Below, piece by piece: positions 57,197 through 61,839 of a DNA stretch of 64,000 nt. Position 1 is the first letter of the stretch, and each line of letters begins with the position of its first letter. The stretch comes from an archaeon (GTDB lineage Archaea; Thermoproteota; Nitrososphaeria; Nitrososphaerales; Gagatemarchaeaceae). Below the pieces are notes generated by a model that ran no database searches, was not told the origin of the DNA, and saw only the letters and a program-made list of their open reading frames with translations. The stretch covers positions 930,001 to 994,000 of the forward strand of contig CP066694.1 of assembly GCA_016432545.1 (NCBI GenBank). The letters run 5' to 3'. A program made the position numbers and the translations under genes.

Positions 57197-58309
57197 TTAG
57201 AACTTCATGAACGGCCGTTTCATCTTCTCTAGGTCGTACTTCCAGACGCCGTCGAACATGTGGTGAGGAATGGTGAAGGCGCTCGCCTCGGTCTTCTTGA
57301 CGAAGGAGAGCTCCACCCTGCCATACAGGTCGGGGATCTGGCTGTTTAGATAGTCAAAAGTCGAGTTCGCCTCCTGGACCGGGATGCAGAGGGTGGCCAC
57401 ATAGGAACCGTCAGACATCGTGTTCTCTTCCCAAAGGAATGGAATCCTCCCGACTGCGTCCCTGGCCCTCCCGAGCTCTCTTCCGAGTTCCCTGAAGGTG
57501 ACCCTGGCAAGAAGGGCGCTGTGGGACACCGACCTCTCGATGTCGCGCTGCCACCTGATGAGGTATCCCGAGACCATCCCGGCCTTCTGCACATGGACCC
57601 TGTAGTGGTACTCCAGCGTCTTCTGGTGAACCCCAACTTTCTTTGCTATGGAGGCGATGTGCTGGAGCGCGTCAATCTGCAACTCCTTCAAGAGGAGCAG
57701 GTCGTTGTAGTCGAGGTGCGCAGGCCTCGTCTTCTTGGTCCGCTCGCCGACGGCGCGTTTAGACTGGCTCAGCTGACTCCAGTCGATGTCCCACCTGTTG
57801 GCTTGGAAGTTGAAGTAGCGGGGATTCATGGTCGGATGCCTCAAGTCGATCGCTTCTGTCAGGGCGTAGCTCTGGAGGAGACCCCGGGCCCTGAGGTAGG
57901 AGAGGAATTCTCGGTGCTCCCTCGCCCTCTCCTCGGGGACCAAGAATAGGCAAGCGAATGTGCCCTGGGGAAGCAGCTTGCCATAGTAGGCGAGGTATGC
58001 GTGCTGGTTCAGCGCCAGGAAGAGGGATCTTGGAGGCACCGAAAGCCTCGGGGATGGTCGGAGCTCTCCCCAGTGTGGCACGAGGCCCAGCCTTCTGTAG
58101 TCGGCTTCAGCGTGGACGCGGAACCCAAGCCTCTTGAACCTCTTGTTGAGCTTGTAGCGCACCGTCTCGGCGTGGACGCCCGTCAGCCTCGAAAGCAGCG
58201 ACACATTCTTCGGCCCCACCTTCTGTATCGCTTCGATTATCCGGGCCTCGACGTCCCCTGAGTCCTTCTGGAACCTCTGGACAGTCTTGGGTCCTTCCAA
58301 CCCGGCCAC
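57197..58309 (-). CDS. Double-HTH regulator, Lrp-like
   Basis: 370 residues. Two winged-helix-like units: IIEAIQKVGPKNVSLLSRLTGVHAETVRYKLNKRFKRLGFRV (about 24-65) and LLLLKELQIDALQHIASIAKKVGVHQKTLEYHYRVHVQKAGMV (about 205-245), each followed by an alpha/beta region. The fold order resembles archaeal Lrp/AsnC-like duplicated regulators. Starts at GTG 58309 or TTG 58300, near GATAATTAG. Target unknown. Confidence 0.8.
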   Translation of the reverse strand: MAGLEGPKTVQRFQKDSGDVEARIIEAIQKVGPKNVSLLSRLTGVHAETVRYKLNKRFKRLGFRVHAEADYRRLGLVPHWGELRPSPRLSVPPRSLFLALNQHAYLAYYGKLLPQGTFACLFLVPEERAREHREFLSYLRARGLLQSYALTEAIDLRHPTMNPRYFNFQANRWDIDWSQLSQSKRAVGERTKKTRPAHLDYNDLLLLKELQIDALQHIASIAKKVGVHQKTLEYHYRVHVQKAGMVSGYLIRWQRDIERSVSHSALLARVTFRELGRELGRARDAVGRIPFLWEENTMSDGSYVATLCIPVQEANSTFDYLNSQIPDLYGRVELSFVKKTEASAFTIPHHMFDGVWKYDLEKMKRPFMKF

Positions 58310-58609
58310 CAGGAGTTCCTAGCGATAATTAGTCTTCCGAGGCCATGTCAGCTACGGTCGTGCAGGGGTCCTACAGAGAGAACAGCCAGAGACGCTCTTG
58401 GAAGGCCACGAGCCTGCGGTCGTATCTGCGACTTTGGGCCCTCATGCGTGTTGGCTGCATCCACTGGATTTGCTCAAATCTCATGGCGTGTGGCGTTTCA
58501 AGTTTGGCGTCCGCTGTGACTTCTGGGCCACATGGCTCGGCCCGCCTTAATGGCCTACTGGATCTAGCGGGGCAACGTTAAATTACGAAGGCCCGGTTTT
58601 CACGCCGTC
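58310..58609. other. Intergenic stretch upstream of Ku operon
   Basis: About 300 bases. The first ~20 bases hold the regulator's promoter; the last ~35 hold the Ku promoter (CGTTAAATTACG, 58576-58587). I see no credible gene between; the 78-residue frame at 58345 has no signature. Confidence 0.5.
58576..58587 (+). promoter_or_regulatory. Promoter of Ku-ligase-PolX operon
   Basis: CGTTAAATTACG lies about 26-30 bases before TTG 58610, giving a leaderless mRNA for the Ku-like gene. No other box is seen before the ligase or PolX genes, so the three probably share this promoter. Confidence 0.6.
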
Positions 58610-59458
58610 TTGCCCAAGGGGGACATCTTCTCAGAGGTGGAGAAGCAGGCCGACAGCGCGGCGGTCTCAAGAGCTTCATGGCGAGGGGTCCTGAGCCTGG
58701 ACATCCCTACGCTGGGCCTGGGGGCGGTGGAGTACCACATGAGGGCCGCCAAGGCGCACGGAGACCTCCAGCCAGTGAAGGTGGTGAAGCTTGACAAGAA
58801 GTCGGGCAAGGAAGTCGTGAGCAGGGAAGTCCCGCGGATCTATCGCTACAAAGAGGGGCCCAGCGGGGAGCGCCTGGACGTCCAGGAAGTCTCGCCCGAG
58901 GAGGTCAAGAAGCACGTCAGGTACAAGGACGGGTTCCCCGTCTTCGCCAAGACGGAGAAGCGCTACTTTCTGAAGTACGAGCTTGAGTTCACCGGCAAGT
59001 GGATAGAGGTGCCCCTCGCGCAGACGATGGACAAGCAGGAGGGGGAGGAGGTAGAGCCCTTCGACAGGACCACGAGGATCGAGGTGGAGAAGGACGGCTT
59101 CGTCCCGCTTGACAGGGTCGCTGAGTACAAGTTCAAGGAAGTCTACCAGCTCGCGCCCGACACCGACAAGAAGGTAGGAGAGACCAACTCGAGGATCATG
59201 CAGCTTGCGCGGTACCTCATCGAGAAGGACATGGCGCTGGTCGCGTTCTTTTCGTGGGGGAGGGGCTACAACTTCTACACGAGCGTCATCTATCCGTACG
59301 AGCGGAAGGACGGAAGGCTCTGGCTGTTGATGGGGATGAGCGAGGGGATCCTGAAGCTCGACGACGCCTGGGCCATCTCGGAGGAGAAGGGGAGACAGCG
59401 CCTCCCTGCCGTCCCGGTCGCAAGAAAGAAGAAGGCGAAGGCAGTCATCTCGAAGTAG
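58610..59458 (+). CDS. ku: Ku-like DNA end-binding protein
   Basis: 282 residues, the length of prokaryotic Ku. SWRGVLSLDI (23-32) corresponds to the conserved xWxGxIxFGLV strand. The segment DRTTRIEVEKDGFVPLDRVAEYKFKEVYQLAPDT (about 152-185) corresponds to Ku's IxxFVxLDEIDPxYFxKPYYLxPD. It is followed by the FFSWGRGYNFYTSVIYPYERKDGRLWLLMGM strands (213-243) that match the RFVLR...LVALRPxGxxLxLxTLR region. A basic tail (RKKKAKAVISK) ends the protein, as in many Ku proteins. Expected to form a ring on DNA ends and recruit the ligase. TTG 58610 start. First gene of the operon. Confidence 0.75.
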   Translation: MPKGDIFSEVEKQADSAAVSRASWRGVLSLDIPTLGLGAVEYHMRAAKAHGDLQPVKVVKLDKKSGKEVVSREVPRIYRYKEGPSGERLDVQEVSPEEVKKHVRYKDGFPVFAKTEKRYFLKYELEFTGKWIEVPLAQTMDKQEGEEVEPFDRTTRIEVEKDGFVPLDRVAEYKFKEVYQLAPDTDKKVGETNSRIMQLARYLIEKDMALVAFFSWGRGYNFYTSVIYPYERKDGRLWLLMGMSEGILKLDDAWAISEEKGRQRLPAVPVARKKKAKAVISK

Positions 59459-59461
59459 GCC

Positions 59462-60295
59462 TTGAGCGACCAGCTCCCGAACTATGTCGGGGAGAACTAT
59501 GCGAAGGCAGTCAAGCAGGACCTCGGGACATGGCTCGTCAAGAACCCCCTGCCCGCTCTCGTCGAGAGGAAGTACGACGGCATCAGGGTCTTCCTCTTCA
59601 AGAGCGGAGAGAAGCTGGTCCTGTCGAGCAAGCACGGGGGAGTCTACACCCCCAAGGGGAGCCCGGCCGTCTTCTCGAGGGTCCCCGAATTCCTCCACGC
59701 GCCGCACAGGATGATACTCGACGGCGAGTACCTCGCAAGAGAGGCCAAGGGGCTCTTCCTCTTCGACGTGCTCCAGGTCGACGACAGGGACCTGAGGGAG
59801 AAGCCTCTGAGGGCAAGAAAGAAGGTCCTCCGAGAGATTCTCAAGGGCACGGGCCTCGAGGTGGACTACATGCAGGCCAGGACCCCTGAGAAGATACTCC
59901 AGCTCAAGGACCTCGCAATCAAGAAGGGAGGGGAGGGCGTGGTCGTGAAGAACCCCGAGTCGGCATACGGGCAGCCGGGCTCGTGGCTCAAGCTGAAGAG
60001 GTTCGACACCGTCGACTGCTTCGTAGTCGACTTCGAGGAGACCAAGGAGATGAGGCAGACGGGGGTTGCGAGGTCGTGGTGGGTCGGCGTGTACGACGAC
60101 GCGGGCCAGGTCGTGGACCTGGGGAAGGTGGGGTCGACCTTCGAGAAGGTGGACCCTCGGCAGGTCAAGAAGGGCTCGGTCGTCGAGATCAGGTTCCAGG
60201 AGCTGACGCGCGACAAGAAGCTGAGGGCGCCGTACATCCTGAGGGTAAGGCACGACAAGACTCCCGAAGAGTGCCTGATGTCACAGTTCGCTTAG
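59462..60295 (+). CDS. Minimal ATP-dependent DNA ligase (LigC/LigD-like)
   Basis: 277 residues: nucleotidyltransferase plus OB domain, no N-terminal DNA-binding domain, as in bacterial NHEJ ligases. Motif I K37-Y-D-G (ERKYDGIRV; K37 takes the AMP), motif III LDGEYL (86-91), motif IIIa LFLFD (98-102), motif IV GGEGVVVK (156-163), motif V WLKLKR (175-180) and motif VI with RAPYILRVRHDK (255-266) are all intact. Starts at TTG three bases after the Ku stop. Joins strand breaks, probably brought by Ku. Confidence 0.93.
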   Translation: MSDQLPNYVGENYAKAVKQDLGTWLVKNPLPALVERKYDGIRVFLFKSGEKLVLSSKHGGVYTPKGSPAVFSRVPEFLHAPHRMILDGEYLAREAKGLFLFDVLQVDDRDLREKPLRARKKVLREILKGTGLEVDYMQARTPEKILQLKDLAIKKGGEGVVVKNPESAYGQPGSWLKLKRFDTVDCFVVDFEETKEMRQTGVARSWWVGVYDDAGQVVDLGKVGSTFEKVDPRQVKKGSVVEIRFQELTRDKKLRAPYILRVRHDKTPEECLMSQFA

Positions 60296-60306
60296 GCAGG
60301 AGTCGC

Positions 60307-60849
60307 TTGTCGCTCAAGAAGGACCTGCCACTCGAGGCCGCAGAGCGCGTGGCCCTTGATTTTCTTGCGAAGACGAAGGGTCTGTACTCGAAGTGTCTGC
60401 TCGCGGGGAGCATAAGGAGGAAGGAGCCCGTGGTCCACGACATCGACTTCGCGGTTATCCCGAAGGGAAAGGACTTCGCTGCCTGGAAGGACAGAGTGAC
60501 GAAGAGGGTGGGAGAGATCGGCGGGTCAGTCGGCCCCTTCGGGGACACGATCTCCACGTTCGTCTACAAGGGCATCCAGGTCAACCTGTTCCTGTGCCTC
60601 AACGCGGACGCGTGGGGCGTGACCCAGATGTGGGCGACGGGGCCCAAGGGGCATACGATAGGCATGACCATCAAGGCCAGGGAAAGGGGGCTGATCATCA
60701 ACTCGAAGGGGCTCTGGACGAGGGACGAGCCGCCGCGCCTCGTGAAGACGAGGACTGAGCAAGAAGTGGGGAGGCTCCTGGGGTGGAAGTTCAAGCCGCC
60801 CGATGACCGCGGCAAGGGGTCCAAGAAGGGCCCTGTATACGAAGAGTGA
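60307..60849 (+). CDS. Minimal PolX-type nucleotidyltransferase, one catalytic Asp replaced
   Basis: 180 residues. Palm signature GSIRRKEPVVHDIDFAVIP (34-52) gives metal-binding D45 and D47. The ATGPKGHTIGMTIKARERGLIINSKGLW segment matches the PolX TGS-x-x-HN-x-x-x-R-x-x-A-x-x-x-G-x-x-L-N block. The third carboxylate, normally in x-V-D-L, is Asn (N93 in IQVNLFLC, codon AAC). The 8-kDa HhH domain and fingers are missing. TTG 60307, 11 bases after the ligase stop. Expected gap filling or end processing; activity needs testing given N93. Confidence 0.85.
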   Translation: MSLKKDLPLEAAERVALDFLAKTKGLYSKCLLAGSIRRKEPVVHDIDFAVIPKGKDFAAWKDRVTKRVGEIGGSVGPFGDTISTFVYKGIQVNLFLCLNADAWGVTQMWATGPKGHTIGMTIKARERGLIINSKGLWTRDEPPRLVKTRTEQEVGRLLGWKFKPPDDRGKGSKKGPVYEE

Positions 60850-61491: not shown

Positions 61492-61710
61492 CTAGGCCTC
61501 GAGTTCTTCGACGGTCACGCTCCGGTCGTGGGCTCTCCGGCCCACCAGCACGGAGAGGGGGTCAGATACCCTGGGAGACCTCCTCACCCGAATTTCTTCT
61601 CCAGAGATTGCCACGATGGAGATGATTTCGCCGGCCCTGATGCCGACCTCTTCGCGCACTTCCTTGGGGATGGTCACCTGAAACTTCGACGTCACCTTCG
61701 ACTTTGGCAT
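61492..61710 (-). CDS. AbrB/SpoVT-like DNA-binding protein
   Basis: 72 residues from ATG 61710, about 26 bases from GGTTAAATG. SKVTSKFQVTIPKEVREEVGIRAGEIISIV is the swapped-hairpin AbrB domain. Antitoxin or general regulator; no PIN or other toxin gene lies beside it. Confidence 0.9.
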   Translation of the reverse strand: MPKSKVTSKFQVTIPKEVREEVGIRAGEIISIVAISGEEIRVRRSPRVSDPLSVLVGRRAHDRSVTVEELEA

Positions 61711-61839
61711 CAGCGACAAGCACCCTCAATCGACATTTAACCCATACGTCATACCGTAGGAAATTACCCGCATCCAGGTTCCGCGAATTCAGGTTTGATG
61801 AAAGCCTCGCGAAGTCGTGCCCACAGAAGAGCTTTGTCG

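Follow-up and report, generated by a model that had tools for sequence, protein, structure and literature searches.

A candidate end-joining operon encoding a divergent Ku-like protein, a minimal ligase and a PolX-like protein with an altered catalytic triad in Gagatemarchaeaceae

Organization of the locus and its Ku-like and ligase genes

The stretch of DNA analysed here, referred to as the window, comprises 64,000 nucleotides and is part of a complete single-contig genome of 1.5 Mb, whose archaeal origin had been claimed correctly by a preceding sequence-only reading. The locus of interest consists of three genes on one strand, preceded by one TATA-like element and separated by gaps of 3 bases between the Ku-like and ligase genes and 11 bases between the ligase and PolX-like genes:

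58578-58585, + strand: TATA-like element TTAAATTA, read from the sequence; the Ku-like start follows after about 30 bp
58610-59458, + strand: Ku-like protein, 282 residues, TTG start, matching PF02735
59462-60295, + strand: minimal ATP-dependent DNA ligase, 277 residues, TTG start, matching PF01068 and PF04679
60307-60849, + strand: minimal PolX-like protein, 180 residues, TTG start, assigned by a match to PF14791 and by fold search

The open reading frames and spacings are those described in the sequence-only reading, which let the unit begin at 58576, just before the TATA-like element. An open reading frame of 288 residues beginning at an upstream GTG was discarded as the third gene, the conserved start being the TTG at 60307. 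Among the upstream regions of 19 homologous Ku genes, 14 have a TATA-like sequence between −32 and −40 (about 0.2 expected from shuffled sequences), as counted with a pattern that does not score the window's own TTAAATTA. A scan of the locus for sigma-70 promoters was uninformative, the host being an archaeon. Divergent to the operon, on the − strand at 57197-58309, lies a gene for a regulator with an AsnC-type helix-turn-helix (HTH), whose family has undergone expansion in the genus (11 matches in genome G009). Comparison with empty sites by means of this flanking gene was abandoned, as the gene family is large and provided no usable empty site. At 61492-61719 (− strand), a gene flanked by one for a DUF1684 protein and one for an MFS transporter encodes a MazE/AbrB-type antitoxin-like protein of 75 residues, with no toxin gene noticed next to it.

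The first gene very probably encodes a divergent and remote Ku, as judged from profile matches. The window protein scores 30 bits against PF02735 (cut-off 25, E 5.7e-7), and all 19 aligned homologues match the same model (E up to 1; best 3.3e-8), while none of them hits another family below E 0.01; the reversed Ku sequence and four shuffled versions gave no match. In the genome search, the PF02735 scores of some relatives' Ku proteins lie below the cut-off. For a broad comparison, 26 canonical Ku sequences of archaeal, plasmid and phage origin were aligned, and hhalign matched this alignment over residues 14-232 with a score of 35.5 (P 2.7e-4, probability 42%). The match starts at the Ku-typical W-x-G-x-[IL]-S motif and is collinear over this range, one additional segment of roughly 50-60 residues aside. 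All 200 column shuffles scored lower (top shuffle 31.5), as did the reversed profile and unrelated profiles. A narrow profile comparison with seven Ku proteins of ammonia oxidisers resulted in a probability of 1.3%, the cut-off of the NCBIfam model Ku_bact was missed (14 of 150 bits), and phmmer and hmmsearch against the PDB sequences returned no Ku matches. The AlphaFold2 model calculated with 19 close homologues reached a pLDDT of 47, too low for a fold search. The basic C-terminal tail is conserved with the consensus KKPKVxISK. The Ku homology proposed from the sequence is thus supported, but as a remote one.

The ligase is built up of a nucleotidyltransferase and an OB domain and does not contain the N-terminal DNA-binding domain, which agrees with its earlier description as an enzyme reduced to the catalytic core. 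It matches PF01068 (4.1e-22), PF04679 (2.1e-7) and the RNA_ligase family PF09414 (3e-8), and among NCBIfam models it scores best against TIGR02779 (NHEJ ligase), with 110 bits, below the cut-off of 228. Motifs I, III, IV, V and VI are present, with Lys37 as the nucleotidyl acceptor; K37, F101-D102, E158-G159, K163, K177, K179 and R263-D265-K266 are invariant or nearly so among 21 ligase homologues.

The PolX-like protein and its active site

The third protein is composed of a palm and a C-terminal thumb, without the 8-kDa/HhH N-terminus and the PHP exonuclease domain that belong to the prokaryotic PolX layout. PF14791 (thumb) is the sole matching Pfam model (3.4e-9), and profile matches extend to the PolX of Thermus (1.1e-9) and to a viral repair PolX of 174 residues (about 1e-8). 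An AlphaFold2 model of pLDDT 88.9 has the Thermus thermophilus PolX complexed with gapped DNA (pdb-code: 3auo) as its top Foldseek match (E 3.1e-11, TM 0.77). Profile, model and fold search agree on a Pol β-type palm and thumb fold, and the assignment as PolX-type made from the sequence is borne out.

The catalytic triad, however, is altered. D45 and D47 are kept in every operon copy, whereas Asn93 (within QVNLFLC) is aligned on the third catalytic Asp of both Thermus PolX and the viral enzyme, so that the operon PolX does not possess all three catalytic carboxylates. All 20 operon copies carry Asn93; an Asp is found at this position in five stand-alone mini-PolX of other Thermoproteota and in two full-length PolX. 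The host's own full-length PolX keeps the third Asp. According to the alignment, the position of Pol β N279 is occupied by Thr117, the Tyr-Phe steric gate corresponds to Trp-Ala, and the TGS motif has Gly-Pro in place of GS, as it also has in the viral enzyme. The N279, TGS and gate positions lose conservation in polymerase-dead bacterial PolX (Prostova et al. 2022, PMC9226535). In contrast to this drift, G34-S35 and R37-R38, forming the GS-x-RR of the triphosphate site, are invariant in all operon copies, among which overall identity to the window copy falls as low as 55%. Because both GS-x-RR and D-x-D are invariant, and because the dN/dS of PolX equals that of the ligase, Asn93 appears as a selected site and not as a sign of decay. 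This pattern suggests that binding of nucleotide and metal is still under selection; ordinary gap filling, on the other hand, cannot be assumed for a protein in which the third Asp has become Asn. Neither this exchange nor the restriction to palm and thumb had been noted in the sequence-only reading.

Stand-alone palm-thumb mini-PolX of 153-194 residues with an intact Asp triad were encountered in other Thermoproteota at L107 6368-6829, L108 1983-2567, L109 7163-7738, L110 1440-2003 and L111 6709-7290. They are unusual in themselves since the PHP domain has been described as obligatory in prokaryotic PolX. A connection of these proteins to Ku was considered and rejected, as no Ku or ligase is recognisable in the five neighbourhoods and a mini-PolX is present in one of 11 Ku-bearing genomes.

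Distribution of the operon and further repair genes

The Ku gene occurs in 24 of 121 relatives, spread over six genera and two families, and in a class-wide sample of 300 genomes it was detected in the genus of the window genome only. The order Ku-ligase-PolX is kept in 19 of 21 named contigs from relatives, acid-soil Thaumarchaeota of the Gagatemarchaeaceae and a second family, and the co-occurrence in related metagenome-assembled genomes (MAGs), which the sequence-only reading had proposed as a check, is thereby found. The closest named relatives are acid-soil MAGs such as SubAcS15-57, with a Ku 88% identical to that of the window; MAGs of this type have been placed in Candidatus Subgagatemarchaeum, family Gagatemarchaeaceae (Sheridan et al. 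2023, PMC10640624), in a paper whose text mentions neither DNA repair nor ligase nor end joining. Median dN/dS values of 0.10 (Ku), 0.18 (ligase) and 0.18 (PolX) indicate purifying selection on all three genes. The recurrence of Ku, the retained gene order and the low dN/dS together argue against a chance assembly of the operon, and its absence from many genomes of the same genus indicates that it is dispensable.

Two contigs deviate from the common order. In L036 (genome G025, a close relative), Ku is broken at about codon 255 and the remaining operon resides on another contig. A TniQ-family gene (PF06527, 2e-16) lies beside the break (L036 6765-8710, with L179 and L180 of the same genome), and a TniQ-type transposon has probably inserted into this Ku. 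In L051 (genome G084), PolX is absent and Ku is frameshifted, for which either decay of the operon or errors in the contig may be responsible. Frameshifted Ku genes were seen at L051 2093-2916 and L050 6001-6832. In one relative, an open reading frame of 190 residues with no Pfam match is interposed between ligase and PolX (L033 7726-8298) and may represent a selfish endonuclease gene. The viral contigs searched contained no relatives of Ku or PolX, and plasmids and phages provided only distant PolX relatives of about 22-37% identity.

A LigD-type POL domain (TIGR02778) was detected in none of the 24 Ku-bearing genomes, whereas the Bacillus subtilis control scores. Matches to TIGR02778 in other families of the order were not accepted as LigD-POL, being far below the cut-off; they probably correspond to the small subunit of the archaeal primase. 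The proposal that PolX replaces the LigD polymerase therefore holds insofar as LigD-POL is absent and PolX stands in its place, but not with respect to a working polymerase, given the Asn in all 20 copies. The window genome additionally encodes a stand-alone LigD-type phosphoesterase (G000:C1:222349-222720; PF13298, 8.6e-39) with HYDFR and GDHS stretches, a domain that many but not all prokaryotic NHEJ systems contain. This gene is present in 20 of the 24 Ku-bearing genomes and occurs in Ku-less genomes too; within the genus it was found in 8 of 8 genomes with Ku and in 9 of 23 without (P 0.003 by Fisher's test, a value that ignores relatedness). A full-length PolX of 562 residues with intact triad and PHP domain is encoded at G000:C1:1380184-1381872. 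As both proteins may contribute from elsewhere in the genome, the notion of a self-contained machine is not supported in its original form.

Proposed function and comparison with known systems

On the basis of sequence and fold comparisons, we consider it rather probable that the three genes constitute a dedicated NHEJ operon of a Subgagatemarchaeum-like archaeon, with an altered PolX subunit. The identity of the genes follows from homology, and the conservation of the operon, the absence of LigD-POL, the phosphoesterase gene, the Asp-to-Asn exchange and the purifying selection are observed; beyond this, we propose that the cell probably repairs breaks by a Ku-ligase-PolX route. The divergent Ku, presumably as a homodimer, would thread onto the ends of a double-strand break, bridge them and recruit its partners. 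The minimal ligase, devoid of a DNA-binding domain of its own, would be delivered to the break and seal the strands. In the place of the LigD polymerase, the palm-thumb protein might bind the 3′ end together with the gap and align them while holding nucleotide and metal, its active site of D-x-D plus Asn probably permitting no more than a slow or specialised addition of nucleotides. Cleaning of the ends, i.e. removal of 3′-phosphates or ribonucleotides, would probably be accomplished in trans by the stand-alone phosphoesterase.

The role of the PolX subunit is the point at which alternative scenarios diverge. An ordinary gap-filling polymerase that replaces the LigD primase-polymerase, with Asn93 still assisting in binding of metal A, would fit the position in the operon, the absence of LigD-POL and the invariance of D45, D47 and GS-x-RR; moreover, a palm-thumb PolX of about 174 residues is a known active architecture, and its TGS motif shows the same TG-P form. 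We nevertheless regard this scenario as improbable, since all 20 operon copies carry an Asn where the five stand-alone mini-PolX of archaea and the full-length PolX carry an Asp, and since Thr117 and Trp-Ala occupy positions whose alteration marks polymerase-dead bacterial PolX (PMC9226535). At the other extreme, the protein could be a pseudo-polymerase serving purely as a scaffold, which aligns the ends or bridges Ku and ligase without any chemistry and leaves the gaps to the full-length PHP-containing PolX or to another polymerase. The exchange in the triad, the presence of the 562-residue enzyme in the same genome and the loss of polymerase activity in noncanonical bacterial PolX (PMC9226535) are in line with this idea, which we judge somewhat unlikely because neither the two remaining Asp nor the residues that bind the triphosphate vary, whereas the triads of polymerase-dead bacterial PolX drift. 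We regard a slow or specialised transferase, or an aligner that depends on nucleotide, as likelier than an ordinary gap-filling polymerase.

A function outside NHEJ, in which a relative of the Ku barrel acts in another process such as RNA or plasmid-end repair, with ligase and nucleotidyltransferase forming an RNA-type repair set, might be read from the weak Ku scores and from the ligase match to PF09414 (3e-8). The DNA ligase model, however, fits far better (4e-22), the top NCBIfam model is that of an NHEJ ligase, the Ku profile match is accompanied by clean controls and the PolX fold is that of a DNA-repair polymerase; such a function is thus very improbable. Returning to the NHEJ operon with an altered PolX subunit, we tentatively raise the possibility, without counting it as the probable outcome, that Ku, ligase and a palm-thumb PolX with D-x-D plus Asn form a third kind of NHEJ core. 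This PolX would be an enzyme or a factor for aligning ends that lacks a characterised counterpart and evolved specifically within an archaeal end-joining operon, family X thereby taking over from a primase-type polymerase, convergently with eukaryotic Pol μ, Pol λ and TdT.

Eukaryotes employ family X polymerases in end joining and prokaryotes primase-type LigD polymerases. If our proposal is true, the combination of Ku, ligase and a family X protein without LigD polymerase would imply that the eukaryote-like pairing arose in archaea too. It would also offer a system of three proteins, all below 290 residues, for testing the contribution of the polymerase subunit, and the invariant Asp-to-Asn exchange directly poses the question whether this subunit acts by synthesis or by alignment of ends.

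A description of a Ku-ligase-PolX operon was not found in the open-access papers that were searched. The NHEJ system of Methanocella paludicola (Ku with separate ligase, polymerase and phosphoesterase) likewise has an archaeal Ku and a minimal ligase that stands alone, and uses a separate small protein for each step; a phosphoesterase gene is shared with the window genome. It relies on a LigD-type primase-polymerase, whereas none was found in the window genome, whose operon contains the palm-thumb PolX with altered triad instead; the window Ku is far from all canonical Ku proteins compared, a set that does not include the Methanocella Ku. Methanocella had been named as the described archaeal system in the sequence-only reading, which is incomplete, as a bacterial-type NHEJ complex has been reported for ammonia-oxidising Nitrososphaerales (Abby et al. 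2020, PMC7554672). The latter form and the bacterial Ku-LigD system also place Ku next to an ATP-dependent ligase of the NHEJ kind. The ammonia oxidisers (family f8), however, possess a canonical full-length Ku with matches of about 1e-40 or better, compared with about 1e-5 for the window Ku in the genome search, and this Ku sits opposite a LIG-POL fusion gene at the four loci with a readable flank, whereas the window operon lacks POL. Canonical Ku beside LIG-POL fits the acquisition of bacterial NHEJ reported by Abby et al. 2020. Compact NHEJ operons are also found in other Thermoproteota (families f18, f40 and f20), there in the order POL-Ku-(ligase plus phosphoesterase). At 11 of 11 of these Ku loci (L138-L148), a LigD-type POL lies upstream on the Ku strand within about 1.5 kb and the ligase, followed by or fused to the phosphoesterase, comes directly after Ku; PolX is present at none of them. 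In L148, ligase and phosphoesterase are separate genes. As both layouts differ from that of the window, the Gagatemarchaeaceae operon constitutes a separate arrangement.

With respect to PolX itself, the 174-residue viral enzyme, which acts in base excision repair, resembles the operon protein in domain content, length and TGP motif, but it carries three Asp and has no Ku partner, whereas the operon PolX has Asn93. PolX genes are genomically associated with LigD or an ATP-dependent ligase in some classes; among archaea, Methanomicrobia show such a link between PolX and an ATP-dependent ligase (Prostova et al. 2022, PMC9226535). The noncanonical prokaryotic PolX of the same study likewise display an altered triad together with altered residues of the dNTP pocket; they retain the PHP exonuclease while their triads drift, whereas the operon PolX has dispensed with the PHP and N-terminal domains and carries one invariant change.
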